This document shows positions 29,649 through 48,892 of a DNA stretch of 62,329 bases, one piece after another. Source of the DNA: Bacteroidota bacterium. Lineage in GTDB: Bacteria > Bacteroidota > Bacteroidia > Bacteroidales > B18-G4. Where the stretch lies: assembly GCA_018831055.1 (NCBI GenBank), contig JAHJRE010000193.1, forward strand, positions 1 through 62,329, read 5' to 3'. Each line of letters opens with the position of its first letter. The stretch's first letter is position 1. Under the pieces are notes generated by a model. It ran no database searches, was not told the origin of the DNA, and was given only the letters and a program-made list of their open reading frames with translations. A program made the translations under genes and the position numbers.

Positions 29649-30171
29649 CGCTGTAGGTATTGGATTTTTTCAATTGTTGAAGCACTTCCTCGAGTATCAT
29701 GAGTTTCATCCTGTAATTCTGGATCATAGCTTCAATCACTTCTTCTGCGGATACATTATCGTTAAGGTCTTCTTTTAATTGCTTGTAAATGCTATCAAGA
29801 TTTTCCATTTCTTCTTTAATATCTTTCTGTAATTCGGGATTATTTCCGGCAAGCAGGAAAATCTGTGATTCGGTTGCCTGGATTTGAGCAGTATAATAAG
29901 CTTCAGCTTCAGTAAGTATCTCTAGTTCTTCCGATTGCTCTGAAATAGCATAATTACTATTGTTTTGTCGGTAGCTCATATAATCGTGGAAAAAATAGCT
30001 GCCAATAAATATCACTATTGCGGCAGCAACTTTCAAGGCCACGCTCAACCACCGGATATTGTTTTGGGTTTCATCCCGAAGGGTAACACCCTTCCATATC
30101 CGTGGATCCGGATCAAGATCATTGAATTGATCTCTGTTTTGTCTGATGAAATTTTCCAGTTGGTCGCTCAT
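29626..30171 (-). CDS. Probable anti-sigma factor, single transmembrane segment (181 aa)
   Basis: A short cytoplasmic N-terminus (1-40) carries PDPRIW (Pro21 to Trp26), then one transmembrane helix (about 45-64, LKVAAAIVIFIGSYFFHDYM) and a periplasmic coiled-coil-like region rich in Glu, Gln and Leu (about 75-175). It starts one base after the ECF sigma gene stops. Position, size and topology fit an anti-sigma factor. The P-x-x-x-[VI]-W motif also occurs before the transmembrane segments of the proteins at 37212 and 40825, next to two other sigma genes. No zinc-binding HxxxCxxC motif is present, so it is not of the classical ZAS type. Confidence 0.75.
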   Translation of the reverse strand: MSDQLENFIRQNRDQFNDLDPDPRIWKGVTLRDETQNNIRWLSVALKVAAAIVIFIGSYFFHDYMSYRQNNSNYAISEQSEELEILTEAEAYYTAQIQATESQIFLLAGNNPELQKDIKEEMENLDSIYKQLKEDLNDNVSAEEVIEAMIQNYRMKLMILEEVLQQLKKSNTYSDEKKIRL

Positions 30172-30172
30172 G

Positions 30173-30739
30173 TTACTGATTATTAAGAATTTCTTTAATT
30201 CTGCGTTTAGCTCTCATATATTGTGATTTGGAATTGGATACGCTGATATTCAGGATTTCGGATATTTCCTGATGATCATATCCTTCCAGAAGATAAAGGG
30301 AGAAAATCATTTTAGCCCCGTCGGGAAGTTCTTCCATGGCTTTTTTAATATTTTCAACCGTCAGTTTGGTTTGATAATCATCGGGTTGTTCTTCTTCTTC
30401 CTGATCGAAATAACTCATATCTTCAAAAAAGCTCAGGTTGGCTTTACGCCGGTTTATTTCATTCAGGCATTTATTGATAACGATCCTTTTCAACCAGCTT
30501 CCGAAGCTGGATTCATAGCGGAAACTGTCAAGGTTGCGGAAAGCATCGGAAAAAGATTCCTGAAGCATATCCTCTGCCTCCTCGCGGTTGTTCATCATCC
30601 TGACGCACAAATTGTACATGGCTTTGGAATAAAGCTGGTACAACTGGTACTGGGCTCCAGGATTTCCCTTTCTGCTCTTATCAATTAATTCCCGATGAAG
30701 TTCCACCCTTCGATCCGCTGTGTTTAATGATTCATTCAA
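30173..30739 (-). CDS. ECF-type RNA polymerase sigma factor (188 aa)
   Basis: Sigma-70 region 2 is at about 25-95 (LYSKAMYNLCVRMMNNREEAEDMLQ, then SFSDAFRNLDSF) and region 4 at about 125-180 (LPDGAKMIFSLYLLEGYDHQEI, then SEILNISVSNSKSQYMRAKR). The length is normal for ECF factors. It is first in a run with an anti-sigma gene, two adhesin-like proteins and two outer-membrane proteins down to the terminator at 26440. This suggests a cell-envelope response regulon, probably autoregulated. It diverges from tryptophanase across a 295-base gap. Confidence 0.93.
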   Translation of the reverse strand: MNESLNTADRRVELHRELIDKSRKGNPGAQYQLYQLYSKAMYNLCVRMMNNREEAEDMLQESFSDAFRNLDSFRYESSFGSWLKRIVINKCLNEINRRKANLSFFEDMSYFDQEEEEQPDDYQTKLTVENIKKAMEELPDGAKMIFSLYLLEGYDHQEISEILNISVSNSKSQYMRAKRRIKEILNNQ

Positions 30740-34155: not shown

Positions 34156-34719
34156 ATGCTTGCCCTCAGGATTATTCTTATTACTGCTTCCTTGACGTTA
34201 TTATGCTTTTCGGTAGCGATGAAAATGGGCTTTTTCAGGTGTCAGTCTTATAAGGAGGCCATCAGATCATCTTTGTCATTAACGGTTTTCATGACAGGTT
34301 TGTTTACACTTGGATGGCTGATCAGTTACTCTATGCATTCATGGCTGGAAGGGTTTAAACAGGTTCCAGGCCTGGTGATCTTGTTTTTGCTAGGATTAAA
34401 AACCATTTACTTTTCCAGGATAAGAAAGGAAGATCCCACATTATTTGACACCGGTATGAGGGGGGTGTTACTGGCTGTTTCATTTGCTGCCGGATTAAAC
34501 GGACTAATCGCCGGACTTGCTTTACCTATAATAGGAGTTGGGTTATTTCCCCTTGTTGCTTTGATCCCGGGTACCGTTTTCTTATTATCGATTTCAGGGG
34601 TGTACTTTGGTAAAATGAGAGGCAATTTGAAATTGGCTCAATGGATGGAGTTTTCAGGAGGTTTTCTTCTTATCGTTTTAGTAGCGCTTGAAATATTTTA
34701 TACAATTAAAGCTGTTTAA
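34156..34719 (+). CDS. Divergent MntP/DUF204-like membrane protein (187 aa)
   Basis: Six predicted transmembrane helices in two similar halves, with GFLLIVLVALEIFY at the end, as in the MntP manganese efflux family. The two signature Asp residues of MntP (in SMDAFA and SIDALA type motifs) are absent: the matching positions read CFSVAMKMG and AGLNGLIAG. Manganese transport is therefore doubtful, and the protein may have another substrate or function. It lies nine bases after the Msr gene. Confidence 0.6.
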   Translation: MLALRIILITASLTLLCFSVAMKMGFFRCQSYKEAIRSSLSLTVFMTGLFTLGWLISYSMHSWLEGFKQVPGLVILFLLGLKTIYFSRIRKEDPTLFDTGMRGVLLAVSFAAGLNGLIAGLALPIIGVGLFPLVALIPGTVFLLSISGVYFGKMRGNLKLAQWMEFSGGFLLIVLVALEIFYTIKAV

Positions 34720-34721
34720 AT

Positions 34722-35174
34722 ATGGCAAAAATCAGGATTACCAAACAGTTTAATTTTGAAATGGCTCATGTTCTGAAGGATTACGATGGACCCTGCCGCA
34801 ATATCCATGGCCATTCTTATGAGCTTTTTGTTACATTGGCTGGGGAACCAAACAGTGATCCGGCTTCTCCGAAGTTTGGCATGATCATGGATTACAAGGA
34901 TCTCAAAGATCTTGTGAAAAGGAATATTACAGATGAACTTGATCATGCCCTGCTTATAAGTGATAAGTATGAACCTGAGAAAATTGATTTCCTGAGAGCT
35001 TCTTTTGAAAAAGTTATCGTGCTGCCTTATCAACCTACCAGTGAGAATATCATTCTGGATATAGCAAACAGAATCAAGCTATTACTCCCTCCCAGGATAA
35101 TACTTCATAGCCTGAAATTGCGGGAAACGGCAACTGCTTACGCAGAATGGTTTGCAGACGACAATCCATTATAA
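34722..35174 (+). CDS. queD: 6-carboxytetrahydropterin synthase / 6-pyruvoyl-tetrahydropterin synthase family (150 aa)
   Basis: Small zinc enzyme of the queuosine (or pterin) pathway. Zinc ligands are in FEMAHVL and NIHGHSY; the catalytic Cys sits in GPCRNIHGH; MIMDYKDLKDL and ELDHALL, then PTSENII are typical. The presence of the Cys and the length fit QueD. It ends the plus-strand operon; no other queuosine gene is in the window. Confidence 0.85.
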   Translation: MAKIRITKQFNFEMAHVLKDYDGPCRNIHGHSYELFVTLAGEPNSDPASPKFGMIMDYKDLKDLVKRNITDELDHALLISDKYEPEKIDFLRASFEKVIVLPYQPTSENIILDIANRIKLLLPPRIILHSLKLRETATAYAEWFADDNPL

Positions 35175-35237: not shown

Positions 35238-35578
35238 TTACCTTACTAATAGTTTTTTGCTTAGTATGTTCTTGTTATTTCCCAGGATAAGCACATTGTA
35301 GATGCCTGCACCAAAGGATGAAACAGGAACTGTGATAGTGTTGGCTCCGTAGTTCATGTAGTGTGTCCTTTCAAAGACTCTCTGACCCAGTAGATTGTTT
35401 ATGACCATATTATACCTTGGGTTTGAAGACTGTCAATAAGGATGTTTACTGTATGTTGTGGAACAATTATTTTGGTTTGAATATCCGTAACCGTTCCATA
35501 TACCCTTAAAGAGTTTTGAAAAAATCCTGTTAGTATCAGAAATAATCCGGAATCCAGAAATATTGCTGATTTTTTCAT
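35238..35578 (-). pseudogene. Frameshifted small protein: signal peptide directly followed by a T9SS sorting domain
   Basis: From ATG 35578 a 59-codon frame gives a signal peptide-like start (MKKSAIFLDSGLFLILTGFF) and then VPQHTVNILIDSLQ before stopping at 35399. Shifting frame near 35425 restores SSNPRYNMVINNLLGQRVFE, and on to GAGIYNVLILGNN and KKLLVR with a stop at 35238, a clear T9SS type A domain. VNILIDS...YNMVINNLLGQRV aligns with LNIMIDK...YISLTDVLGRNV in the neighbour at 35667, so the sorting domain looks continuous apart from a one-base slip. There is no passenger domain. It is either the remnant of a larger cargo after internal deletion or a tiny CTD-only protein with a frameshift (or sequencing error). 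It keeps its own terminator. Confidence 0.7.
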
Positions 35579-35666
35579 CTTAAATGGTTTTTGTTCGGTT
35601 AATTTTTTTACAGTTGGTGTCCTATTTTATCAGACAGAAGATTTTTTATTGGTTGCCTGAAATATT

Positions 35667-37208
35667 TCATTTAAGTAATTTCCCTGTGTAAACGGTTTCT
35701 CCATTGCTATTTTTAAGATGCAGAAAATACATACCATTTTTTAAATGATCTGTTTTTACGATTATGTTTACATTGTCTTCGATACAATTGAATTTTTGAT
35801 TTAAAACGTTCCTTCCCAGAACGTCTGTAAGTGAAATGTAGATATAGCCTTTGTTTACCTTATCAATCATAATATTCAGGTAATCCAGGAAAGGGTTTGG
35901 AAAGACTGTCACACTAAGCCGGTAAGGGGATAGGTCCTCGGTGCCAAAGACATTTTCATCGTATATTTTAAGGACCACGGTTCCTGCAATAGGTTGTGTA
36001 TCTGACAGGGTTATATCGGTCCACTGATTGTATTTTCCCGCGAGATCAGCTTTCAGCCTGTATGAACCCAGGGAAAGGTTTCTGAAACTGAAATAGCCGG
36101 ATGCATCGGTTTGGATATAATCGATAGGCTCATTGGCTGAATTAAACAGGATGACTGTAACACTCTTGAATTCCATATTATTATCCGGTGGAGGTCCTGT
36201 AATATGTTGAACGGTTCCGCTGATTGCTCCGGGGCCTGCAAAGTTTGGATCCGGAGTTACCAGATAGGTATCCAGACTGTATGAATGTGTGTCATTCATA
36301 GTTATAAGTCCGGCGGATTCCCATAATATGCTGTTAGGAAAGTATGTAGGCAGGAAATCAAAGTAATGCGTGGAGTTCCTGGTTAATGACACTTGAATAG
36401 CGTAGGTTCCTGGTGAAACGTTTGTAAACCAATAATATCCCCAATCGGAAAAATAATTAGTATCAACAGGAATCAGTGATTGGTTTATCTTTCTGTATAG
36501 TACAGCTATACCCGTATCACCTTCCGGTACCGGATTATTTATCGGCTGAATTCCTGAATAGGCAAACCCTCCCAAGAGAAGATACACAGGCGTAGTAACT
36601 GTCTGGCAAAAAATATCAGTACAGTTTACAATGCTGTTGTGGATAGTAAGACATGTTTCATAACTTCCCGGCTGCTGGTAAACGTGAACAGGGTTTTGCA
36701 GCACCGATGTTTGTCCGTCACCGAAATCCCATGACCAATGATCGGGATTGCCCTGTGAGATATCCTGAAAGTGAATTTTATTACTGATCCCTGAAGTCGT
36801 GTCGGGGTAATAAGTAAAACCTGCATGGCAGTCTTCAAGGGAGTCACAAAGGATAAAATCAAACTGGTAAAGTTGGATATCAGGTTTATACAATGCTGAT
36901 TTATTTACAATCGTGTTAAGACAAGGATCTAATGTAAAAACCCGGATGGTTCCCTGAAGATTGCTTCCAGGAAAGAACAATGTATCACAGAAAAACCCAT
37001 TACTGTCAGTATAAACAATTAGTTCATAAATATGAGTATCATTAAGCATACTGTCGACTGAAATGGTCATAGCCTGGTTTTGCATGGGAGAACTTGTTTC
37101 TCCGTTCAAAACCTGACCCTGTAAAACTGCAAAGTTGCTGTTGCCCAAAAGGACCTGTATGCCTAGTAAAAAAAAGATCAATATCAGTTTTATTTGTAGT
37201 GTGTTCAT
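35667..37208 (-). CDS. PKD-domain surface protein with T9SS sorting domain, cassette A (513 aa)
   Basis: Secreted, non-enzymatic by appearance. Signal peptide about 1-22; Ig-like/CnaB-like domain (about 28-125, LQGQVLNGETSSPMQN); PKD domain (about 140-205, WSWDFGDGQTSVLQNP); two SdrD/regulatory-like beta repeats (LLLGGFAYSG ... PGTYAIQV; GAISGTVQHI ... LGSYRLKA); T9SS domain at about 433-513 (VFPNPFLDYL ... GKLLK). It is the last gene of a sigma / barrel / PKD cassette, starting four bases after the barrel gene. Its paralogue at 39176 has the same position in cassette B. It may be the ligand or output of the cassette's sensing system, which is inference from gene order. Confidence 0.85.
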   Translation of the reverse strand: MNTLQIKLILIFFLLGIQVLLGNSNFAVLQGQVLNGETSSPMQNQAMTISVDSMLNDTHIYELIVYTDSNGFFCDTLFFPGSNLQGTIRVFTLDPCLNTIVNKSALYKPDIQLYQFDFILCDSLEDCHAGFTYYPDTTSGISNKIHFQDISQGNPDHWSWDFGDGQTSVLQNPVHVYQQPGSYETCLTIHNSIVNCTDIFCQTVTTPVYLLLGGFAYSGIQPINNPVPEGDTGIAVLYRKINQSLIPVDTNYFSDWGYYWFTNVSPGTYAIQVSLTRNSTHYFDFLPTYFPNSILWESAGLITMNDTHSYSLDTYLVTPDPNFAGPGAISGTVQHITGPPPDNNMEFKSVTVILFNSANEPIDYIQTDASGYFSFRNLSLGSYRLKADLAGKYNQWTDITLSDTQPIAGTVVLKIYDENVFGTEDLSPYRLSVTVFPNPFLDYLNIMIDKVNKGYIYISLTDVLGRNVLNQKFNCIEDNVNIIVKTDHLKNGMYFLHLKNSNGETVYTGKLLK

Positions 37209-37211
37209 AGT

Positions 37212-38501
37212 CTAGTAATTAAGGTATATTCCTGTTCGTAATCCTATGGAATAGGGCATTTTAGTATTATAACCTTTACCTGTTTTATAGAAGCTTCCGA
37301 AATATTGGCTAAAAACAGGTTCAATGGAAAACTGAAGATTGTTGTTAATCTCGTATCGCATTCCTAATCCTGCAGTCCATTGCCAGTTTGTAATATTTCT
37401 TCCCGGGTACAGCAAATTACTTTTAATGAGTGTTGCGTCATCCGGTATAAACTTTACTGTGGGTTCGTTTTTATAGACCAACCAGGAAAAGATGACTCCT
37501 CCGCGGACAGAAAACGAAACCCGGTTTCTTTCCCAAATTTTTAAACCTATGCTTAGTGGAATTTGCAGATACAGGTATTGGTTACGTGTTTGCTTGATTA
37601 CCGTATGCTCTATTGAGTCATAGATCCCGGTCATTTTAAGGTTGAATATTATCGAATCAGGATATTCAGGATGAATCTGAAAAGAACTCACATCATAAAA
37701 ATAACCGACACTATCGTAACTGCGGTAATCGATGCTTGTATTTCCGTATTCGGAATAGTATCCCAATCCGGCACCACTTTGAATGAACCAGGAATTGCGG
37801 GAATAACCGGCATTTAGTTCCAGCAGGTATTGATTGCGGTTACCATTGTTTTCAGGATAAAAGGTAATCCCGGGAGTTATATTAACACCTGTAAACCATT
37901 GGGATATACGGTAATAATCCGGTACTTGGGGTATAGGAGCCGGTCGGTTGGTAAATGATGCAGGAGGCAGGTTTATATTCTTAAAATCTGTTAATAGATA
38001 GGTTAAACCATAGGGTTGCATTGTAAAGGGAAAAACTCTTTGAATAGTATTGTTTTCAGAAAGCCTTGCAGGTTGTGATCCAAATTCATCGGAAATCATA
38101 ATTGTATTGTCAGCATTTACTTTTGCTGAGGCAGCAACTGTATTCTGCATTTCCGCATTAGCAGGGTTTACAGTTGCTTGTCTTTCCTGAATAGTCAAAT
38201 CCGGGTTTCGTTCAATGTGAGATCCGGCAGATGCTTGATTGATCTGCTCAACATCCTGAGAGGCAATTGCCGGGATATTTTCAGAAGGTGTGTGAAAAGT
38301 AAGAACCGCAGTAAGGGAAATCAGGGTGACTCCCATGAAAATGAGAAGAATCCTGTTTTTTGACCAAAATCCTCCTTTCCGGAACCAGTTATTGAGGAAA
38401 TTTTCCTCCAGACCGGCCCAGACTTTTTCGGAAGGCTCAATCGAATGATCTTCCATGTTTTTCAGGATGATTTTATCAATATTGTGCAATTGATTTTTCA
38501 T
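37212..38501 (-). CDS. Inner-membrane-anchored protein with C-terminal beta-barrel, probable anti-sigma, cassette A (429 aa)
   Basis: The cytoplasmic N-terminus (1-48) carries PSEKVW (Pro23, Trp28); a transmembrane helix spans about 51-69; then comes a low-complexity Asn/Ala/Ser linker (about 70-185); the C-terminal half (about 190-429) has alternating strands of an outer-membrane barrel (LELNAGYSRNSWFIQSGAGL, YLQIPLSIGLKIW, WTAGLGMRYEI, GLRTGIYLNY). It overlaps the ECF sigma gene by four bases. Position and the P-x-x-x-V-W motif shared with the simple anti-sigma at 29626 suggest the N-terminus binds the sigma factor. Such a chain could reach from cytoplasm to outer membrane. If the barrel is not inserted in the outer membrane, it would be a periplasmic beta domain. 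Confidence 0.75.
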   Translation of the reverse strand: MKNQLHNIDKIILKNMEDHSIEPSEKVWAGLEENFLNNWFRKGGFWSKNRILLIFMGVTLISLTAVLTFHTPSENIPAIASQDVEQINQASAGSHIERNPDLTIQERQATVNPANAEMQNTVAASAKVNADNTIMISDEFGSQPARLSENNTIQRVFPFTMQPYGLTYLLTDFKNINLPPASFTNRPAPIPQVPDYYRISQWFTGVNITPGITFYPENNGNRNQYLLELNAGYSRNSWFIQSGAGLGYYSEYGNTSIDYRSYDSVGYFYDVSSFQIHPEYPDSIIFNLKMTGIYDSIEHTVIKQTRNQYLYLQIPLSIGLKIWERNRVSFSVRGGVIFSWLVYKNEPTVKFIPDDATLIKSNLLYPGRNITNWQWTAGLGMRYEINNNLQFSIEPVFSQYFGSFYKTGKGYNTKMPYSIGLRTGIYLNY

Positions 38502-39097
38502 GGTCTTATTTCATTTTGCTGCAAATAAGGTTTCAGTTTTTTTTGCAGGAAAAGCCTTGCTTTAAACAGCTGTGTTTTTGACGTGTTAACGGATATCCCT
38601 AGATTTTTCGCAATATCCGCATGCGAGAATCCTTCGAAAACGAACATATTAAAAACAAAGCGGTATCCTTCCGGCATTTCCTGGATGTGTTTCATGATGA
38701 CATCCTTCGGGATTGGTGTTTCGGTGCTTATTTGTTCATTATCAGACGGAACATCTTCATACAGGTCATCAATGTTCAAATGGTAATGATGTTTCAGGTT
38801 AGAGTGATAATGATTAATAGCAGTATTGATCATGATTCGTTTCATCCATCCTTCAAAAGAACCTTTACCACGAAAGGTTCCGATTTTTTTAAAAACCTTG
38901 ATAAATCCCTCTTGCAGGATGTCTTCAGCATCGGCAAGGTTATCCGAGTAGCGGGCACAAACGCCAAGCATTACAGATGAATGCCTCCGGTATAGTTCCC
39001 GGAATGCTTCCCTGTTACCTTTCCTGCATTCATCCAGTATATTCTGCTCGGACTCCATCTGCCTGTAACTTTGTTCAAGACAATTAATTCGTTTCAC
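38498..39097 (-). CDS. ECF-type sigma factor, cassette A (199 aa)
   Basis: Region 2 (about 40-105: LYRRHSSVMLGVCARYSDNL, AEDILQEGFIKVFKKIGTFR, GSFEGWMKRIMINTAIN) and region 4 (about 140-195: MPEGYRFVFNMFVFEGFSHA, IAKNLGISVNTSKTQLFKAR) are intact. The true start may be the ATG encoding MESEQN (residue 14), since family members usually begin a few residues before region 2. Its stop overlaps the start of the barrel gene (ATGA). It is closely related to the sigma of cassette B, sharing GFIKVF and RMVFN/RFVFN blocks. Confidence 0.93.
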   Translation of the reverse strand: MKRINCLEQSYRQMESEQNILDECRKGNREAFRELYRRHSSVMLGVCARYSDNLADAEDILQEGFIKVFKKIGTFRGKGSFEGWMKRIMINTAINHYHSNLKHHYHLNIDDLYEDVPSDNEQISTETPIPKDVIMKHIQEMPEGYRFVFNMFVFEGFSHADIAKNLGISVNTSKTQLFKARLFLQKKLKPYLQQNEIRP

Positions 39098-39122
39098 GGT
39101 TGCCTGTAAAGCAAAACGAAAA

Positions 39123-39152
39123 AAGCATCCCTCTAAAGGTTGGGATGCTTTG
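39123..39152 (-). terminator. Rho-independent terminator separating cassettes B and A
   Basis: aaagcatccc / gggatgcttt stem with a 10-base loop and a minus-strand T-tract, 24 bases after the stop at 39176. It shows that cassette B ends here and cassette A is transcribed separately. Confidence 0.85.
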
Positions 39153-39175
39153 TAATATTGTAAATTGATTAGTTA

Positions 39176-40813
39176 TCAATAGTTTGTTTTAATAAGCTTT
39201 TGTGTGATGATAGCATTATCTTCCGATATCAGCACAACCTGATACAAACCCACCGGCAACCCGGTAGTATTAAATAAAATCTGGTTGCTGCCTGCAGACA
39301 GATGGATATTTTCACTAAACACCTGTTGCCCTGTTTGATTCAGGATCATTGCCTGGCAGGAAGAGTTTGCTGTTCCTTCCAGATAGATTCTCGCATGAGA
39401 AGTGCAGGGATTTGGGAAAATATCGCCTGCTTCTTTTATAAATAACGAACCTGTTTCGTTTATATCAAAAGTAATTTGATTTGATAAAATGATTAGAATC
39501 AGTTCATTGAAGTTCGTATTGTTGGCATCCAGAGTTACGATGGCCGGTATGGTGTGTTTTCCGGGGATTTCTGCATGAACTTTATAAGTTCCCATAGGCA
39601 GGGCATTAAAGGCAAAAGATCCATTCAGGTCGGACTGTATATAATGGGTACAAATATCATCCGGGTCAAGCAACATGATAGAAATCCCTTCGGCTGGGGT
39701 AAACTCAGGATTTTCACCACTACCATAAGCAATATTCCCTTGGATTAACCCATCTCCGTTATTCAGATCCGTTCTGCGAATGAGGTTGATATCACATTCC
39801 CAGTTAGTACTGAAAAGGTTGATCACCTCTGCAGATTCCCAGTTAAGCTTATCCCCGTAATAAGTGGGCAGATAATTGTCATAATAAACCGATTGACCTT
39901 GAATCTGAACCCGTGTAATATATTTCCCCTCAAGAATCTGGGCAAAGAAATAATAACCTAAAGTATCGATAATAGCTGTATCGAGGGGTATTAGATTATC
40001 TGCGCTATCAAATTTATAAAGGTATGCCGAACCAATGTCGATGGGGAATCCTCCTATTTTGGCATGCCCACCAAGATGATAATAATCCCGCTCAACCACA
40101 AGAACATCTTTGGTTATGGTGCTGACATCGTAAAAGTCGTCGTGTGTAATTTTGTTGCTGATGGTAAGTGATACATTGTAAACACCGGGTTCGGCATAGG
40201 AATGTTGAGGATTTTGTTCATGTGATACAGGGCTGTTATCACCGAAATCCCATTCCCAGGTGCGAATGTTTTCGCCAACAGAATTATCGGTAAAAATATA
40301 CAAAAGGGTACCGGCAGAATCCTTAACTGCGACAAAATTTGCCTGAAAATCATTATTGGTAGCAGGATCGTAAATCTTTAGGTCTTCAGCGACGATATGT
40401 GCTGTTGCTTCCCAGTAGAATCTGAAGTATGCCTGGTTCTTATATTGAACGCTATCGATGTCGTAGGTAATGAATACAAGAGATCCCTGATCGCAAGTAG
40501 TTTGAATGGTATCGTAATAGAACCCGTATTCGTTGGTGACAAGAGATTTGGAATAAGAAAATGACGGGTTATAGCTGAGGTCGGATTCAATCCAGAGGGT
40601 ATGGTTGGAAACGGGGGCTCCACTGGTTTCATTGGTCACCTGGCCGGAGATATACAAATAACCATATTCTGAGCCGTTAATCTGGGGGAATGCTATTAAT
40701 GGCAAAAGAACCAACATTCCCAGCAGCAGGAAGTTTCCGGCCAGCTTCCTCAATCCGGGGCATTGTCCCGGATCGCTGCTATGAATTATTTTATTAAGGT
40801 AAAAACTAAGCAT
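39176..40813 (-). CDS. PKD-domain surface protein with T9SS sorting domain, cassette B (545 aa)
   Basis: Paralogue of the 35667 protein with the same order: long signal peptide (hydrophobic core about 27-42), Ig-like/CnaB-like domain (YISGQVTNETSGAPVSN), PKD domain (WEWDFGDNSPVSHEQNP), two beta repeats (YHLGGHAKIGG, IQGNIAYGSGE) and a T9SS domain (DIFPNPCTSHARI ... TQKLIKTNY). The signal peptide has an unusually long n-region; an internal start is possible but none gives a better one. It begins 11 bases after the barrel gene ends. Confidence 0.85.
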   Translation of the reverse strand: MLSFYLNKIIHSSDPGQCPGLRKLAGNFLLLGMLVLLPLIAFPQINGSEYGYLYISGQVTNETSGAPVSNHTLWIESDLSYNPSFSYSKSLVTNEYGFYYDTIQTTCDQGSLVFITYDIDSVQYKNQAYFRFYWEATAHIVAEDLKIYDPATNNDFQANFVAVKDSAGTLLYIFTDNSVGENIRTWEWDFGDNSPVSHEQNPQHSYAEPGVYNVSLTISNKITHDDFYDVSTITKDVLVVERDYYHLGGHAKIGGFPIDIGSAYLYKFDSADNLIPLDTAIIDTLGYYFFAQILEGKYITRVQIQGQSVYYDNYLPTYYGDKLNWESAEVINLFSTNWECDINLIRRTDLNNGDGLIQGNIAYGSGENPEFTPAEGISIMLLDPDDICTHYIQSDLNGSFAFNALPMGTYKVHAEIPGKHTIPAIVTLDANNTNFNELILIILSNQITFDINETGSLFIKEAGDIFPNPCTSHARIYLEGTANSSCQAMILNQTGQQVFSENIHLSAGSNQILFNTTGLPVGLYQVVLISEDNAIITQKLIKTNY

Positions 40814-40824
40814 ACCCCTGAAAA

Positions 40825-42081
40825 TTAAAAGTTATACAACAAGCCTACCCGTAATCCGGCAGTATATGTATGTTTTGATTTTATATAATCGCTTTTATAG
40901 GCAGATGTAATGTAATATCGGAACATAGGTTCGCATGATAAACTAAAGTTTTCGTGGAATCTGTAATTAATTCCAGCACTTAAGAGCAACTGGACATTAC
41001 TGTTGACTCTTTCCGGTTGCTTATTTTCGCTGATACCCAGCATAAGATCTCTTTCCCTGAATGCAGCTTCTGGCATGTTCTTATGGACAAGGAAAGAAAA
41101 TGCCGGACCTGCTTTAACAAACCAGGAAAGTTTTCCGATATTTTTCCTGAATCCGAACAGAACAGGAATTTCCAGGTATGTATACCGGTTTTTGGATGAA
41201 TGATAAGATTCTTTGACCGAATCGTATACGTCAACCGGGCTGGTGTGATAAACAGGAACAACGCCGTTTTCAGTGGTATCAAAAGTAACCTCATAAACAT
41301 CATCATAGGTTCCTAAATACTCCTGATAATTATACGTATATCCTCCTTCATCCCGTGAAAGATTAAGTCCAACACCCGATTCGATGAAGAAGTCTGTATA
41401 TTGCAGAGTGGCGGTCAGATCGAAATGATAAGCGCTTTGGTTGGGGATATTATCGTCCGGGTAAAACATAACTTCGGGATTAAAATAAATTCCCAGCAGT
41501 AATTCCGGTTTAAACTTATAGGTTATTTTCTCGTTGAGCGATGTATACTTTACTTTATATACAAAACTGTTGTTGTTATCCAATATGGGTTGAGAGGATG
41601 AATGTGGAATATTTAGGGATGATCCGTCAATGACATTGAGGGTAAGAGGATTGATGGTTTCCCGATAATTTTGTTCAGGTTCATCCTGAAATGTTTTACC
41701 GAATGATGTAGTCGGACCGGTGTTATCGATTTCCTGAGGGATTATAGTTGTAATGTTCACATCCAGTCCGGCGGAAGAATTTGTAACGCTTTCAGGTGTA
41801 TTGCTTTGGGTATCAGGTTTGGCTTTGGTAAAGCTGGAAGCGCTGGATTTGTTGTAAGTAATCCCATTGTCTTGTTTAATGACATACAGACCGACAATTA
41901 GTGCGATCAGGAAGAGGGCGGCCAGGGTAGCCAGTGAGACCGGGTTGCTGAATAACGTGCCGGAAGAGTTATTGGGGATATTAGCTTTAATCCTTTCCCA
42001 AACCTGTTCCGGCGGTTGTGCTTCAAACGACCTGAATCTTTCACGGAAGACCTCATCCATATGTCTGGAATCTCTACTCAC
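40825..42081 (-). CDS. Inner-membrane-anchored protein with C-terminal beta-barrel, probable anti-sigma, cassette B (418 aa)
   Basis: Same plan as the 37212 protein: a cytoplasmic tail with PPEQVW (Pro23 and Trp28 at identical positions), a transmembrane helix at about 48-68 (SLATLAALFLIALIVGLYVI), a Ser/Thr/Asn-rich linker (about 69-190) and a C-terminal barrel-like half (FDLTATLQYTDFFIESGVGL, YLEIPVLFGFRKNI, LLLSAGINYRFHEN, AGLRVGLLYNF). The ends of both proteins (G-L-R-x-G-[IL]-x-x-N-[YF]) look like outer-membrane barrel C-terminal strands. It overlaps its sigma gene by four bases. Proposed role: trans-envelope anti-sigma, from context and motif only. Confidence 0.75.
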   Translation of the reverse strand: MSRDSRHMDEVFRERFRSFEAQPPEQVWERIKANIPNNSSGTLFSNPVSLATLAALFLIALIVGLYVIKQDNGITYNKSSASSFTKAKPDTQSNTPESVTNSSAGLDVNITTIIPQEIDNTGPTTSFGKTFQDEPEQNYRETINPLTLNVIDGSSLNIPHSSSQPILDNNNSFVYKVKYTSLNEKITYKFKPELLLGIYFNPEVMFYPDDNIPNQSAYHFDLTATLQYTDFFIESGVGLNLSRDEGGYTYNYQEYLGTYDDVYEVTFDTTENGVVPVYHTSPVDVYDSVKESYHSSKNRYTYLEIPVLFGFRKNIGKLSWFVKAGPAFSFLVHKNMPEAAFRERDLMLGISENKQPERVNSNVQLLLSAGINYRFHENFSLSCEPMFRYYITSAYKSDYIKSKHTYTAGLRVGLLYNF

Positions 42082-42614
42082 GGGTTTTTGGTTTTTTTAA
42101 TCTTCATTTGCAATGCATTCCGTGCTCTTGAAAGTTGTGATTTGGAGGTATTTTCCGAGATGTTAAGCATATCGCCGATCTCTTTGTGGGAATAACCCTC
42201 AATAATGGCCAGGTTGAACACCATTCGATATCCATCCGGCAATTCCTGGATCAACTGTAGCAATTCAATGTTAGAAAGCCGGTCAATAGCCGTTTCATCT
42301 TCCATTAATACATAATCAGCTTGTTCAATGTCGGTTTCATTGAATTTTCTAACCATCTTTTTGTAATAATTAATGGCGGTATTGATCATCGTCCTCCTTA
42401 TCCAACCTTCCAAAGAACCTTCGTTTTTAAAATCCTTCAGGTAAGTAAAAACTTTAATGAAGCCATCCTGAAGAACATCTTCCGCCTCCATTTTATTTCT
42501 TGTAAAACGAAGGCATATTCCAAACATCTTAGGCGCAAAACGCCTGTAAAGTGTCTCCTGTGCATGGGAGTCATTTTGCAAGCAGCCTTCTATGATTTGT
42601 TCCTCGTTCAGCAT
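42078..42614 (-). CDS. ECF-type sigma factor, cassette B (178 aa)
   Basis: Region 2 (LYRRFAPKMFGICLRFTRNK, AEDVLQDGFIKVFTYLKDFK, GSLEGWIRRTMINTAINYYK) and region 4 (LPDGYRMVFNLAIIEGYSHK, IGDMLNISENTSKSQLSRAR) are complete. First gene of cassette B. It probably drives its own cassette and perhaps other surface-protein genes; the promoter it recognises cannot be read from one copy. Confidence 0.93.
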   Translation of the reverse strand: MLNEEQIIEGCLQNDSHAQETLYRRFAPKMFGICLRFTRNKMEAEDVLQDGFIKVFTYLKDFKNEGSLEGWIRRTMINTAINYYKKMVRKFNETDIEQADYVLMEDETAIDRLSNIELLQLIQELPDGYRMVFNLAIIEGYSHKEIGDMLNISENTSKSQLSRARNALQMKIKKTKNP

Positions 42615-42948
42615 TCAGTTATGGCTTCCTATGTTATATACAAAATGCCAGCCCTATACCCGAAGTATCTTTGGCTGGATATCCGTTTACCTTTAAAAAG
42701 TTAACCAGTAAAGGTAAGAAAAAAACCATAACTACGTCAATAGCTAATTTTTTCTGGGAATAAAGCCAGATTTAAGCTGTAACGAATTGTGCTTCAAACC
42801 ATTGATAGAAAGGCAACTTCAGCACAATCCATAGACAACAATTTTTCCGGAATGGTTGCACATCAAACAATTGATCATCAAATTCCTTTTGCAGGATATC
42901 AACCCCTTTAGATCGGGGGATTCAGGAATCAGAAAAAGATTCTACATA
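42615..42948. other. 334-base intergenic region between cassette B and the RND gene
   Basis: Holds the promoter region of cassette B and the 3' end of the RND operon. I see only a weak CCCC/GGGG hairpin near 42900-42916 without a T-tract, and no convincing promoter element, repeat or RNA gene. Confidence 0.4.
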
Positions 42949-45900
42949 TCAGGGTTTCCTTTTTTTAGTAAGAGTCCTGTTAATTTTCACTTTTCCCAGA
43001 TAAACAATATGATACATGGACGGTACTATGATCAGTGTCAGGAAGGTCGCAAAAGAAAGTCCAAAAATAATTGTCCAGGAAATTGGTCCCCAGTAGGCTG
43101 CATTATCGCCTCCAAAATAAATATTCGGGTCAAAACTTTTCAGGAAGCCAATGATGTCAATATTTAATCCCATAGCCAGGGGTAATAGTCCAAGAATAGT
43201 AGTAATAGCTGTCAACAAAACAGGTCTCAGACGGGTCCTTCCTGCTTCTATCACACAGGCAGTGGAATCTTTAATTGATAATATGGCATTATCTTCCAGA
43301 CCAAGTTCTTTCCTTTTCCTTTTCTTTAGAAGATCTATATAATCAATCAGTACAATGGCATTGTTCACTACCACACCAGCCAGGGAAACAATTCCGATAC
43401 CTGTCATGATTACAATAAAATCCATTCTGAATGTTCCTAATCCACCGAAAACGCCAATAGTACTGAAAAGCACACTGGCAAGAATAATGATTGGTTTCAC
43501 AATTGAATTGAATTGTGTGACCAGGATCATCAGGATCAGTGATAAGGCAATAAGCAGAGCTCTTTCAAGGAAGGCGAGAGACTCAGCCATTTCTTCCTGT
43601 TCGCCGGTAAATTTATACTGATAACCATAAGGCATAGGGAAGTCCATAAGAATGGCTTTTATCTGGTTATTTATTTCCGTAGCATTATAACCTTCAATCA
43701 CATTGGAGTAAATAGTAACCACTCTTTCCATATCTTTCCTTTTCACTTCTCCATAAGTAGTACTGTATGAAATATCGGCTACTGCAGAAACAGGGACCTG
43801 GACGATCTTCCCGTTTGCCTGATCTCGGAAAGTAATTTTTTGATTCAGAAGGGCAGGAATATCGTAACGGAAATTATCTTGTAAACGAAGTTGAATTGGG
43901 TATTCATCTTCGCCAATTTTATAGTCTGATATTTCCTTTCCGAATAATGCAGTACGGATGGTTGAAGCAATTTGCCCGGTAGAAAGTCCGAATCTCCTCG
44001 CTTTGTCACGGTCTATACTAAGTTGGATTTCAGGTTTTCCGACATCAAGATCAATTTTGAGGCCTTCAATACCTTCTATTTTTGCTGTTTCTATGATAGA
44101 TTGCAGTGTGTCTGTCAGATACAGTAATTTCTGAAAATCCCTTCCGCTTACTTCAATGTTCACTGCTTTACCGGCAGGTGGTCCTTCAGATTGTTTGGCA
44201 ATGGATATCTGGATACCCGGGTATTTACCAACCAAAGCATCTGAAAGATCAATTAATGCATCGTTGCTGTTCAGGTTTCCCCTTTTATCAAAATCAACGA
44301 AATTAATGGTAACCAGCCCCCTGTTTAGTTTTTCAGACATATCAAAGACTTCATCTTCCGAACGGGCCCCACTTCCTACTGTAACAAGAACATCTTTAAC
44401 AATGGGCTTATAAGGTTCCAACACATTGAAAACCTTATTTTCGATATCTTTCATAAATTCATTGGAGGCTTCGATATCCATCCCGATAGGGCCTTCTGCG
44501 AGGATATTAATATATGAAGGATCGCTATCAGGGAAGAAGGTCATTCGGGGATTGGTGCCGAAATAGAATCCAACGGTAACTATTAAAAGCAATATTATTC
44601 CTGCAAGGAAATAAAAGGCATTGTTTTTCCGTATGGCAAATCGCAATAACCTATCGTACCAGTTCTCTAACTTAACCAGGAAAACACTTTGGAACCATTG
44701 AGAAGAGGGATAAAACAGAAAAATATTTAAGATACCAATAATGCCAAAAATCAGGAATAATGCACCTCCAACATTCATCTTTCCCAGGTAAAGCAGTGCA
44801 GAAATTACCAGCATAACCAATGCAAACAGGAGGGATCTTTTTTTATTCATGGGCGATTCCTGCTCGCTGCGTTTTATAAATGTGGACGAAATGACAGGAA
44901 TTATCACAAGGGCAACAAAAAGCGAGGATGTTAAGACGATGATCAGGGTTGTAGGCAGGTACTTCATGAATTCACCCACCATGCTGTCCCAGAATAATAG
45001 CGGGAAAAATGCGGCGAGAGTGGTTGCAGTTGATGATATTATAGGCATTGCGATTTCTCCCACAGCTTGTCTGGCGGCCTGCATCTTTGAATATCCCCGG
45101 TCAATGAAGCGGTATATATTTTCAACAACAACAATGGCATTATCTACCAGCATTCCAAGAGCAAGGATAAGCGAGAAGAGAACGATCATATTAATACGGG
45201 TTTGCATAAAGCCCAACACCATGAAAGACAAGAACATAGACGTTGGGATTGCAAACCCTACAAAAAGTGCGTTCCGTGTTCCCAGGAAGTAATACAAAAC
45301 AAGGATAACAAAGATTACCCCCATAACCATGCTATTCTCAAGATTACTTAGCTGCTTCCTTACTATATCTGATTGATCCTGAGTTATGGAAATATTAAGG
45401 TCTTCGGGAATCGCTCTTACTGACCTGGCATCAGCCAGAACCTGGAACACTTGGTCGGTGGCTGCCAAAAGATTTTCCCCTCCTTTTTTAATTACCTGCA
45501 AGGTAACCACCGGATTTCTGTCAAGGCGCGTATAGCTTTTGGTTTCTTCAAATCCAAATGTAATCTCAGCCACATCCTTGAGATATACAATGCGATTGTT
45601 TTCGTTTTTAACAATGATATTCGAAATCTCATTTGGGCTGGTAAATTCTCCAATAATCCTGATTGAACGCCGATTGTCGCCAAGTAATAATTCACCACCG
45701 GACATTGAGATATTTTCAGCGGCAATAGCGTTTTCGATATCATTAAAGCTAAGTTCAACGGCGGCAAGTTTATAGGGATCAACTTTGATCTGCATTTCGC
45801 GTTCGTTCAGACCGATAATTTCCACTTTGCTGATCTCATAAATCCTTTCTATCTCATCTTCCAGATATTCTGCATATTTTTTAAGTTCGTTTAAACTAAA

Positions 45901-46377
45901 ATCTCCTGAAAGATTAACATTTATGATAGGGAACTCAGAAAAATCGATATCCATTACCATTGGATCGTCGAGAAGGTCGTTGGGTAATTCACTTTTAGCT
46001 TTATCAACGGCATCTTTAACATCCTGCAGAGCCTGATCGACGTCCACATCGGTGTTAAATTCGACAAAAATGGCAGAAATATCCTGGGAGGAAGTAGAAC
46101 GAAGTTCATTAATACCTTTAATGGATTCAATCTCCTTTTCCAGGGGGCGGGTAATGAGGTTTTCAATATCTATGGGTGGATTTCCCGGATAAATAGTCTG
46201 CACCATGATGGTTGGCAGTACTATATCGGGAAACAATTCCTTTGGAAGAGACCTGTAAGAATACAGGCCAAATACCAGTAGAATAACTATCAGCAGGTAA
46301 ACCGTATTTTTATTATTTAGTGCCCACGTTGTGAGCCCAAATTCCCGGATTACTTTTTTTGTCTCGTTCTTTTCCAT
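42949..46377 (-). CDS. RND efflux pump, HAE1-like inner-membrane permease (1142 aa)
   Basis: AcrB-type proton-driven exporter subunit with 12 transmembrane segments and two large periplasmic loops. LPKELFPDIVLPTIMVQT at the N-terminus, the porter-domain VEIIGLNEREMQI, and repeated GIGIVSLAGVVVNNAIVLIDY in the second half are family motifs. In TM4 the proton-relay motif reads LVDNAIVVVEN, with one Asp where AcrB has two, as in many Bacteroidota pumps. The length is about 100 residues above AcrB, with extra sequence around 520-560. The ATG overlaps the adaptor stop (TAATG), so the two are coupled. Substrates unknown. Confidence 0.93.
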   Translation of the reverse strand: MEKNETKKVIREFGLTTWALNNKNTVYLLIVILLVFGLYSYRSLPKELFPDIVLPTIMVQTIYPGNPPIDIENLITRPLEKEIESIKGINELRSTSSQDISAIFVEFNTDVDVDQALQDVKDAVDKAKSELPNDLLDDPMVMDIDFSEFPIINVNLSGDFSLNELKKYAEYLEDEIERIYEISKVEIIGLNEREMQIKVDPYKLAAVELSFNDIENAIAAENISMSGGELLLGDNRRSIRIIGEFTSPNEISNIIVKNENNRIVYLKDVAEITFGFEETKSYTRLDRNPVVTLQVIKKGGENLLAATDQVFQVLADARSVRAIPEDLNISITQDQSDIVRKQLSNLENSMVMGVIFVILVLYYFLGTRNALFVGFAIPTSMFLSFMVLGFMQTRINMIVLFSLILALGMLVDNAIVVVENIYRFIDRGYSKMQAARQAVGEIAMPIISSTATTLAAFFPLLFWDSMVGEFMKYLPTTLIIVLTSSLFVALVIIPVISSTFIKRSEQESPMNKKRSLLFALVMLVISALLYLGKMNVGGALFLIFGIIGILNIFLFYPSSQWFQSVFLVKLENWYDRLLRFAIRKNNAFYFLAGIILLLIVTVGFYFGTNPRMTFFPDSDPSYINILAEGPIGMDIEASNEFMKDIENKVFNVLEPYKPIVKDVLVTVGSGARSEDEVFDMSEKLNRGLVTINFVDFDKRGNLNSNDALIDLSDALVGKYPGIQISIAKQSEGPPAGKAVNIEVSGRDFQKLLYLTDTLQSIIETAKIEGIEGLKIDLDVGKPEIQLSIDRDKARRFGLSTGQIASTIRTALFGKEISDYKIGEDEYPIQLRLQDNFRYDIPALLNQKITFRDQANGKIVQVPVSAVADISYSTTYGEVKRKDMERVVTIYSNVIEGYNATEINNQIKAILMDFPMPYGYQYKFTGEQEEMAESLAFLERALLIALSLILMILVTQFNSIVKPIIILASVLFSTIGVFGGLGTFRMDFIVIMTGIGIVSLAGVVVNNAIVLIDYIDLLKKRKRKELGLEDNAILSIKDSTACVIEAGRTRLRPVLLTAITTILGLLPLAMGLNIDIIGFLKSFDPNIYFGGDNAAYWGPISWTIIFGLSFATFLTLIIVPSMYHIVYLGKVKINRTLTKKRKP

Positions 46378-47501
46378 TATTTAATTCTGATTTCGGATCC
46401 GTCAGAAACTAAATTATATCCTTCAGTGATAATGATATCACCGGTATTAAGTCCATTATTAACTTCAGTTTGATCCTGATAAGAAACGCCGGGCTCAACA
46501 TATACTTTTTTTGCAATCAGCTTATCAGAACCGGAAGTTACCTTGTAAATGTAGGAGCCTTTTCTGTCCTGTTTCATCAGGATAGAAGGGATAAGCATGG
46601 CTTGTTCCGTTGAATAATCGTTAATTTTAATTATAGAAAGTATGTTTGGTTTAAGCTGACTGTCAATATTGCTAATTTTTAATTGTATGTTGAAGGTCCG
46701 GTTTGTGGGATTGATTACATTACCGATTCGGTGAATAGGCACTTTGAGTTGAATATCTGGATAGGATGGGAAGCTAACAGACACAGTGTCCCCTTTCCGG
46801 ATGACGGGAAGGTAATTCTCGGCAATATCAGCATTGATGTAAAGCTCAGAGAGGTTTACCAGTTGCATAATCTGTACACCGGGGATAGCCAGTTCTCCTT
46901 CTTTCTGGAAGATTTCATCAACGATACCATCAATGGGAGATTTAATACTGGCCATTTCCAATTGGGCTTCCAGGGTTTTGAGTCTGGTTTCCAATGATTC
47001 TTTCTGGTTTTTTGCCTCAAGGTACTGTATTTCTGAGCCAATTTGTTTTTCCCAAAGTTGCTTTTGTTTTTCAAAAACTGTTTCGGCAAGCTCCAGGGAT
47101 GTTTTAAATTCTTCAATGGTATTATCCGTAACACTGGTATTCAGCTTCACCAAATACTGCCCTTTGCTTACCCTGTCACCTTCCTTAACAAAGATTTCCC
47201 TAATTTGCCCGCTGATTTCCGGACTTATAAAAGCTTCATTGATGGATTCAACACTACCTGAAGCTTCAAAGAAATGTTTAAATTCCCGTGGTTTTAGCGT
47301 ATCAGTTCTCACAAGAATATTCTGGGTGGTATCAGAACCGGTTAATTCGATCAGTTCTTTTTCCAGAAGCGCGATTTCATGATTAATTTGGCTAACCTGG
47401 TTCTTTTTTTCTTTTATTTTTCCACGGATTTTTTCGGTCTGGTCCCCAGATTGACATGAAGCAAGGATTGCGACAACCAGTATAAAAATCAATTTTTTCA
47501 T
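46377..47501 (-). CDS. RND efflux periplasmic adaptor lipoprotein (374 aa)
   Basis: Membrane-fusion protein joining the RND permease to its outer-membrane channel. A lipobox (VAILASC, Cys16) anchors it. Coiled-coil hairpin parts (KIRGKIKEKKNQVSQINHEI early; FKTSLELAETVFEKQKQLWE later), the lipoyl-like half-motifs (GQIREIFVKEGDRVSKGQYL and SPIDGIVDEIFQKEGELA) and a C-terminal beta-barrel/membrane-proximal part ending DGSEIRIK are visible. It is the third gene of the TetR-TolC-adaptor-RND operon. Confidence 0.92.
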   Translation of the reverse strand: MKKLIFILVVAILASCQSGDQTEKIRGKIKEKKNQVSQINHEIALLEKELIELTGSDTTQNILVRTDTLKPREFKHFFEASGSVESINEAFISPEISGQIREIFVKEGDRVSKGQYLVKLNTSVTDNTIEEFKTSLELAETVFEKQKQLWEKQIGSEIQYLEAKNQKESLETRLKTLEAQLEMASIKSPIDGIVDEIFQKEGELAIPGVQIMQLVNLSELYINADIAENYLPVIRKGDTVSVSFPSYPDIQLKVPIHRIGNVINPTNRTFNIQLKISNIDSQLKPNILSIIKINDYSTEQAMLIPSILMKQDRKGSYIYKVTSGSDKLIAKKVYVEPGVSYQDQTEVNNGLNTGDIIITEGYNLVSDGSEIRIK

Positions 47502-47545
47502 TTACAGTATTGTTAAATATTTCAGGTACTCTATGTTGAATTATA

Positions 47546-48892
47546 TTAATTTCTGGTAAGTAACTTCTCAAGATCCAGTTTGGTTTCTGATAGATCAAGA
47601 ATACTGATCATAAGCTCTGATTCTGAAGTAAGGAACTGATTATGGGTTTGTAACAGATCCAGACTTGTTGCCAGTCCTTCCTTATATTTCAGCACGGTCT
47701 TTTTATAGATCTTTTCTGCAATAGATAAGCTTTTGGATTTATTTTGAAAAACCAGGTACGCATTGTTAAAATCGGATTTTGCTTGTCTGGCTTTAATGGT
47801 AAGACCTGTTTTCAATTGATCATCCAAAGTCTGTACTTTTTCGAGATTCAGTTTTTCCTGCTGAACTCTTGATGACCGGTATCCTGAGCTCCAAATAGGG
47901 ATATTAAGTTCAACGCCAAGGATTGAAGTCGGAAACCATATGCCTTCGCTATCGAAAAAATCCCATTTGTTACGCTGTGCCTGTGATTGATATGTTAAAA
48001 ATGCATTCATAGTCGGTAAATATTCTGACCGGACTGCTTTTAATCTCATAATGGCAAGTTCCTGCTGGGTTTTTAGAATCCGGTAGTCAATATTTTCATT
48101 ATAATTGAAAGCTTCATTAATCAGAGCAGTATAATTAGTTTCACTGAGAATGTCATCAAGGCTGTTGGTCAAAACTAACGAATCGCTGAGCTTAAGGCCC
48201 AAAATAAATTTCAGATAACTGTATGCTAATTCGGTTTGGGTTTCAGAAGTGATTACAGCAGCTTCCAAATCAGCTACAATTAGTTCAAGCTGTTCAACAT
48301 CAATATCTTCCAGGAAGCCCACTTTATAAGTTTCGTTGGTTTCGTAGAGCATTTTTCTCATTTCTACCAGGGTTGTATCCAGGATTTCGTTGTTAGCTTC
48401 AGAAACCAAAACGGTTATGTAAGCCATACTTACTTCTTTATGAATGTCAATTTCTTTTTTCCTGTATTCTTCCTGTGATTTTTCCACCAGTTTTTTCGAT
48501 GCCTGGACTCCCAGGATGTAACGGCCATCGAAAATAAGCTGGTTCAGGATGACTTCACCATAGGCTGTGTATTTTGTGCCAAACTGGATCTTTTGTTCCG
48601 GTGAATCCGGCCCGAATGAACCTTCAGGGATAATGAAAGTAGGACGAGCCAGGAAATGATTGTATGCAATATTGGCATTCAATTGGGGGAATCCTGCGGA
48701 AAGATATTCATTAACAGTTTGCCTGGCCACTTCGATATCTTTACCGGCGTTGATCAGGTCATAATTATTTTCGAAAGTATATTGCCTTGCTTCCTGGATA
48801 CTGAAGCGGAATACTTCCTGTGAGAATGTTATTTTGATGGCGAGGGAGCATAAAATTGTCATTATCCCTGCTATCAGCATTTGTTTTGTCAT
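47546..48892 (-). CDS. TolC-like outer-membrane efflux protein (448 aa)
   Basis: Outer-membrane channel for the RND pump. Signal peptide about 1-25, then two TolC repeats of long helices, each beginning with a motif like EARQYTFENNYDLINAGKDI and ending in heptad-rich alpha-helical barrel segments (VEQLELIVADLEAAVITSET; YKKTVLKYKEGLATSLDLLQ). The YKEG-TSLDLLQTHNQFL motif is characteristic. It lies 44 bases before the adaptor gene. Confidence 0.92.
   Translation of the reverse strand: MTKQMLIAGIMTILCSLAIKITFSQEVFRFSIQEARQYTFENNYDLINAGKDIEVARQTVNEYLSAGFPQLNANIAYNHFLARPTFIIPEGSFGPDSPEQKIQFGTKYTAYGEVILNQLIFDGRYILGVQASKKLVEKSQEEYRKKEIDIHKEVSMAYITVLVSEANNEILDTTLVEMRKMLYETNETYKVGFLEDIDVEQLELIVADLEAAVITSETQTELAYSYLKFILGLKLSDSLVLTNSLDDILSETNYTALINEAFNYNENIDYRILKTQQELAIMRLKAVRSEYLPTMNAFLTYQSQAQRNKWDFFDSEGIWFPTSILGVELNIPIWSSGYRSSRVQQEKLNLEKVQTLDDQLKTGLTIKARQAKSDFNNAYLVFQNKSKSLSIAEKIYKKTVLKYKEGLATSLDLLQTHNQFLTSESELMISILDLSETKLDLEKLLTRN

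Follow-up and report, generated by a model that had tools for sequence, protein, structure and literature searches.

In cell-surface signalling of the FecR/FecA type, a signal at the outer membrane reaches an extracytoplasmic function (ECF) sigma factor through a separate TonB-dependent receptor and a FecR-type anti-sigma factor. A family of Bacteroides proteins named Dma (dual membrane-spanning anti-sigma) has been described since 2024 (as cited in PMC13088901 and PMC12596196). According to the accessible part of PMC13088901, Dma proteins have a four-part domain order, ECF21 sigma partners and sigma-dependent phenotypes; deletion of dma2 in B. thetaiotaomicron strongly raises the sigma factor and neighbouring operon genes, and the authors propose an unknown glycan as the signal of Dma2. 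Here we analyse a 62,329-nucleotide contig (JAHJRE010000193.1, assembly GCA_018831055.1; hereafter the window) from a member of the Bacteroidales, the minus strand of which carries two head-to-tail cassettes, each starting with an ECF sigma gene, followed by a middle gene and then by a gene for a PKD protein with a sorting tail of the type IX secretion system (T9SS). In architecture and partnership, these cassettes are a T9SS-coupled variant of the Dma system. An earlier note, made from the sequence alone, had stated that no mechanism was described for such genes; this no longer holds, because the accessible part of PMC13088901 sets out the Dma/Das arrangement with the same four-part order.

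All six genes lie where the earlier note had placed them, in two units of the same order. Cassette A consists of an ECF sigma factor (42078–42614, 178 amino acids (aa)), a putative Dma-type anti-sigma factor (40825–42081, 418 aa; protein A) and a T9SS cargo (39176–40813, 545 aa). Its counterparts in cassette B are a sigma factor at 38498–39058 (186 aa), protein B at 37212–38501 (429 aa) and a cargo at 35667–37208 (513 aa). Both sigma factors exceed the Pfam cut-off for sigma r2 and r4, and no ECF21 family was found among the Pfam and NCBIfam matches listed for the cassette proteins (for NCBIfam, the best 25 of 109). Both cargos match PKD, CarboxypepD_reg and Por_Secre_tail (PF18962; 36.0 bits in A and 42.9 in B, cut-off 27). 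Between the cassettes, a hairpin at 39151–39122 followed by a T run (−14.6 kcal/mol, z −3.6) bears out the proposed terminator; a simple terminator scanner missed it, its loop limit being 8 and the hairpin loop 10. An ATGA overlap of the sigma and middle genes had been claimed for both cassettes and is present in B (38501–38498), with GTGA in A (42081–42078). Likewise, the reading frame of cassette B is open from GTG 39097, where the unit had been said to begin, but this codon directly abuts the −35-like box of a conserved promoter pattern, so that sigma B is probably translated from the ATG at 39058 instead. A third set of sigma, middle and T9SS genes lies on another contig of the same genome (C137).

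The middle protein is predicted to combine, in one chain, a cytoplasmic part, a single transmembrane helix, a tether and an outer-membrane-type barrel, much as had been read from the letters. We folded protein A with AlphaFold2 from an alignment of 64 proteins (62 of the 75 Dma relatives described below and the two window proteins); protein B aligns with A over its full length at 22–26% identity, and its structure was read from that alignment, A alone having been folded. The model of A has helices at residues 6–17 and 25–33, a transmembrane helix at 47–69 and strands within 193–417. Its predicted local confidence (pLDDT) is mostly 85–98 in the barrel, moderate (62–79) in the N-terminal helices and 74 overall (pTM 0.55), and we take the low-confidence residues 70–181 as disorder, which gives a tether of about 120 residues (about 70–190). 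By hand count the barrel has eight strands, of OmpA/NspA type, and begins at residue 193, close to the position after about residue 185 at which the earlier note expected one. OmpA, NspA and Ail ranked first in Foldseek (best E 6e-8), and the VIA-align matches, which span residues 189–418, included NspA (Z 17.9), an OmpA model (17.8) and OprF (16.9); Pfam matches to outer-membrane barrels stayed below threshold (best 25.7 bits versus 27 for A, and 16.9 versus 28.7 for B).

Across the 64 aligned proteins the tether varies from 112 to 197 aa and is unconserved in sequence (0.84 bits). Extracellular loop 2 (about 244–297 in protein A, assigned by hand) is 54–57 aa long in 64/64 proteins and has a conservation of 2.35 bits, inside the range of the strands (1.69–2.84); loops 1, 3 and 4 have 1.55–1.77 bits. 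Lysine and arginine average 1.69 in the 12 residues before the transmembrane helix versus 0.95 in the 12 after it, which is consistent with an N-in orientation. No FecR domain appears among the Pfam matches listed for the window proteins or 64 relatives, in keeping with the proposed lack of a FecR relay. An anti-sigma role of proteins A and B is suggested by analogy, being supported for their relatives. A wider anti-sigma class that would include the Dma N-terminal domain made a weak case and was set aside: the sigma loci of the same genome yielded, beyond its three Dma proteins, only L014 (E 0.005).

The partnership of the three genes extends well beyond the window. Relatives were gathered by a profile search built from ten A-type proteins, and a first set comprised 75 Dma proteins, none shorter than 395 aa and none containing X, in 64 named loci (L102–L165; the protein of L123 reaches the contig end) from Bacteroidales and other Bacteroidota metagenome-assembled genomes, a few labelled Chlorobiota. 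A sigma gene lies directly upstream of the Dma gene in 74 of the 75, and in all 75 under a wider overlap rule that resolves the exception, L125; the expected pairing of sigma and barrel genes in related genomes is thus borne out. A T9SS-tail gene lies directly downstream in 68/75. In the seven exceptions, a gene with the M domain described below runs off the locus (L118, L126 and L127), the locus ends too early (L123 and L137) or the M/T9SS gene lies just beyond the distance rule (L148 and L151). In a second, overlapping set (the window, L031 and L062–L101; genomes partly shared with the first), the rule found a T9SS-tail gene next to the Dma gene in 38 of 43 cases; L083 and L090 end early, the T9SS gene of L094 starts 309 bases on, and that of L096 is the second gene. 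The same loci supplied the sequences for our T9SS-tail, sigma and M models, and the tail model was checked by Pfam on 45 third genes.

These third genes share more than a sorting tail. In an alignment of 43 of the 68 third genes and the two window cargos, Pfam found PKD in 45, CarboxypepD_reg in 44 and the sorting tail in 43 (E 0.001), and PKD and CarboxypepD_reg flank a further domain about 110 residues long, here called M (39764–40096 in cargo A and 36249–36584 in cargo B, by M-model match). When four M domains were scanned in isolation, no Pfam family exceeded its cut-off. Foldseek with cargo A returned broad matches to multidomain surface and complement-type proteins, with TM-scores below 0.3 among the 50 matches listed. 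The genome of the window has at least 150 T9SS tails but only three M domains, one in the cargo gene of each of its three Dma cassettes; it also carries SprA_N (E 8e-178), so that T9SS is present as judged by SprA, the sole T9SS component searched. Over 99 genomes of the order, 32 have both Dma and M, 11 Dma only, 12 M only and 44 neither (Fisher p 1.8e-7), in a Dma search that used a single sequence and misses some Dma genes. Further cassettes of sigma, Dma and M-cargo genes lie in L239 (5507–9324), L242 (429–6032) and L245 (2577–12045; reverse-strand coordinates); because they escaped the single-sequence search, that search undercounts. Throughout the phylum, Dma-like matches occur in at least 80 of 296 genomes, many covering the N terminus only, and M in at least 17 of 296, the present genome included and the matches in the others weak; these are lower bounds, as at most 5 (Dma) and 15 (M) candidates per genome were scored. 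Loop 2 of the barrel differs at loci without an adjacent M cargo; the difference tracks ancestry and, being confounded with it, was dropped as a sign of a link to the cargo.

M also occurs on the regulatory side of these loci. In five of them (L147, L156, L159, L160 and L161) a second sigma gene stands behind the first cassette together with a gene for a 190–191-aa anti-sigma factor, which has a Dma-like N terminus, a transmembrane helix and M as its periplasmic part (E 1e-12 to 2e-18 by hidden Markov model). The M domains of cargos and anti-sigma factors align with each other in a profile–profile comparison (E 8e-18 over 105 columns) and in single pairs (E 2e-7 with cargo A and 0.002 with cargo B), which indicates that M is used both in the exported cargo and in a regulator encoded at such loci. 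Two other loci carry natural splits of the Dma protein. L098 (3690–6001) encodes a sigma factor, an anti-sigma factor with transmembrane helix and linker (239 aa), a separate barrel (316 aa) and two T9SS proteins; in L095 (2357–4784) the sigma factor is fused to the anti-sigma, transmembrane and linker part (415 aa), again with a separate barrel (387 aa) and two T9SS genes. Both separate barrels have a signal-peptide-like N terminus, judged by eye and hydrophobicity, and in both loci the two halves carry DT-rich repeats close to the break. Neither barrel had a Pfam barrel match above cut-off, and their assignment follows our own Dma model. These splits favour an outer-membrane location of the barrel and suggest that the two halves can function separately.

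The tandem arrangement of cassettes A and B recurs in related genomes. In 12 genomes with both cassettes, the sigma, Dma and cargo trees each part A from B with support 1.0, which suggests that the whole unit was duplicated before those genomes diverged. Judged from these trees, the pair seems to be a whole-unit duplication with no sign of exchanged parts.

A promoter pattern offers a candidate output for the sigma factors. Upstream regions of 68 of 74 sigma genes and the two window regions formed a set of 70, in which a dyad search found CAAC-N17-GTCT in 31 (shuffles reached at most 14 for any dyad). The broader GCAAC-N(15–18)-GTC[TA] occurs in 44/70 versus a shuffle rate of 0.3%, a count to be read with the pattern having been derived from the same 70 sequences, the related genomes not being independent and one of the 44 matches lying far upstream (L117, −214). 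Cassette B carries it as GGCAACC ... TGTCT at 39078–39104 (minus strand, by dyad and pattern search). A second, seemingly intact copy at 35632–35657 precedes, on the same strand, the decayed remnant of a further cargo gene (35238–35578, read from the sequence), which lies downstream of cassette B and keeps an N-terminal piece and a sorting-tail piece in different frames, its middle gone. A-type genes of this lineage have T-rich elements of housekeeping look, judged by eye; before cassette A we picked out a candidate promoter at 42708–42740 (minus strand; TTGAC ... TTACCTTTAC) that presumably resembles Bacteroidota promoters. A separate pattern for A-type promoters was dropped, as most of its occurrences fell where the coding region begins. 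Among M-protein genes that do not immediately follow a Dma gene, none of which was used to derive the pattern, 10 of 17 have it upstream (one of the 17, L151 at 3819, is probably its locus's own third gene), versus 1 of 31 T9SS-tail genes without M. The background is 6 of 327, comprising two M genes present in both groups (L065 and L071), two broken or cut cargo-like genes and two unrelated genes. The regulon thus likely includes the operon itself and further M-protein genes, with the pattern presumably read by the freed sigma factor.

The locus can be explained in three steps, and the explanation as a whole falls a little short of an even call. First, the N terminus of Dma very probably holds the sigma factor, with the protein crossing the inner membrane once, its disordered tether spanning the periplasm and its barrel in the outer membrane; here the architecture is a prediction and the anti-sigma action is carried over from relatives. 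Second, the freed sigma factor would read GGCAAC-N(15–17)-GTCT promoters, which would drive the whole operon in cassette B and many related cassettes (positive autoregulation) as well as other genes of the same T9SS surface-protein family, with cassette A seeming to use a housekeeping-type promoter instead; conservation of the pattern makes this step likely. Third, and tentatively, the M-domain protein would leave the cell by T9SS and act at the surface as a ligand or co-receptor for the conserved loop 2 of the barrel, so that the cell would read whether, or in what state, its own secreted product is displayed. Indirect support for this step comes from the near-regular occurrence of the cargo gene, from its pairing with Dma genes in the genome of the window and from M in the five short anti-sigma factors. 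The sign of such feedback is not predictable from sequence. In its strongest form, possible but on balance doubtful, the M-domain protein would be the ligand of an envelope-spanning anti-sigma factor by which the cell tests the arrival of its own secretion product and sets its transcription, and the short M-containing anti-sigma factors would be a reduced version of the circuit.

Several observations weigh against this explanation. A T9SS-tail gene lies next to Dma in 0/20 loci outside the order (from other orders of the class, picked for long open frames), within which the tail model did find three tails; cargo is therefore not required for Dma function in general. Inside the order, L092, the one clear exception of the second set, has no T9SS gene within 4.7 kb, the more distant T9SS genes of L094 and L096 and the directly adjacent one of L093 are without M, and L090 stops 842 bases past its Dma gene. 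Of 61 M places (E 2e-15 or better), 16 lack a listed Dma match in the 8 kb upstream; three of these adjoin Dma genes missed by the search, six are no more than 2.2 kb from a contig start, and seven remain without Dma. A mirror-tree comparison gave no clear sign of cassette-specific co-evolution of barrel and cargo, with partial correlations of 0.49 for DmaA with cargo A, 0.41 for the mismatched DmaB with cargo A and 0.04 for DmaB with cargo B. As for the promoters, the pattern is absent upstream of 26/70 sigma genes, cassette A included, and is not enriched genome-wide (9 matches in the genome of the window and 18 in a reversed control).

A plausible alternative, if short of an even chance, is that Dma senses something else, such as a glycan or envelope damage, and that the M protein is only a regulated product, an adhesin or coat component. 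Dma genes without T9SS cargo outside the order and in L092 favour this, the pattern before further M genes suggests that, either way, M proteins belong to the regulon, and an unknown glycan is the signal proposed by the Dma2 authors (PMC13088901, accessible part). Against it, five short anti-sigma factors have M as their periplasmic part, which puts the domain, in those proteins at least, within the signalling chain; next to an M cargo, loop 2 is also preserved in length and sequence, though this is confounded with ancestry.

Partner barrels hold or help to assemble some T9SS cargos, and the barrel might likewise anchor or assemble the M protein at the surface while the sigma factor adjusts supply of the complex, with no ligand-type signal crossing the envelope. 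The barrel and cargo genes are neighbours that mostly occur as a pair, and the natural splits keep a separate barrel protein beside two T9SS genes; the covalent link to a sigma-binding part would, however, be superfluous, yet it is found in 64/64 aligned proteins with a tether of at least 112 aa, and we consider this reading improbable. That T9SS-tail genes are simply so common that a downstream neighbour means little (at least 150 Por_Secre_tail places in the 4.19-Mb genome, with 150 of 227 candidates scored) is very improbable given adjacency in 68/75 and 38/43 (overlapping sets) against 0/20 outside the order, and given that the partner is one specific M family, not any T9SS protein.

Other features of the window were recorded alongside the cassettes. 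At 514–22449 lie six consecutive large genes (997–1516 aa), every one of which ends in a T9SS sorting domain (PF18962 at 523, 5177, 8838, 12713, 16479 and 19468). A third ECF sigma gene, directly followed by a gene for a 181-aa protein with one transmembrane helix and no Pfam family at E 0.001 (29626–30739), likely forms a conventional sigma/anti-sigma pair; 3′ of it are a 370-aa gene without Pfam family and then a DUF2807 gene. The cassettes are flanked by an RND/HlyD/TolC efflux operon (42949–48892) and by MntP and PTPS (QueD-like) genes (34156–35174). Among 37 loci longer than 12.5 kb, the efflux operon recurs in 13 and the MntP/QueD neighbourhood in 12, and with so few kept we draw no function from the flanks.

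Should the secreted protein be the signal, the cell would use one molecule to monitor what it exports by type IX secretion; otherwise, the promoter pattern would still indicate a regulon of M-domain surface proteins. Most such operons offer a candidate partner for Dma, along with a domain shared with anti-sigma factors, a promoter pattern on which a reporter could be built and split forms that allow the two ends to be examined separately. As in FecR/FecA signalling, a signal from the outer membrane would reach an ECF sigma factor, here with no FecR match listed for the window proteins or 64 relatives. The closest likeness is to Dma/Das, described in the accessible part of PMC13088901 with an N-terminal sigma-binding part, a transmembrane helix, a long disordered tether, a C-terminal barrel and a neighbouring ECF sigma gene. 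Near dma2 that account places DUF4943 and DUF4858 proteins, whereas the third gene of the window cassettes encodes a T9SS protein with M; tandem cassettes, M in short anti-sigma factors and separate-barrel forms are features of the present loci of which we found no mention in the same part. Dma3 is described there as having a sigma domain fused to the Dma protein, and L095 instead fuses sigma and anti-sigma with the barrel split off. In the PorA–PorXY–SigP pathway of Porphyromonas gingivalis, too, a T9SS-tail surface protein acts upstream of an ECF sigma factor and its self-activation, but that pathway runs through a two-component system, with no envelope-spanning anti-sigma factor described in the accessible part of PMC7712824. 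A search of titles and abstracts of openly licensed papers, a weak guide, found none that joins Dma-type regulators with T9SS cargo. Set beside these systems, the regular pairing of a Dma switch with one family of secreted T9SS surface proteins appears to be new, and it suggests what is sensed.

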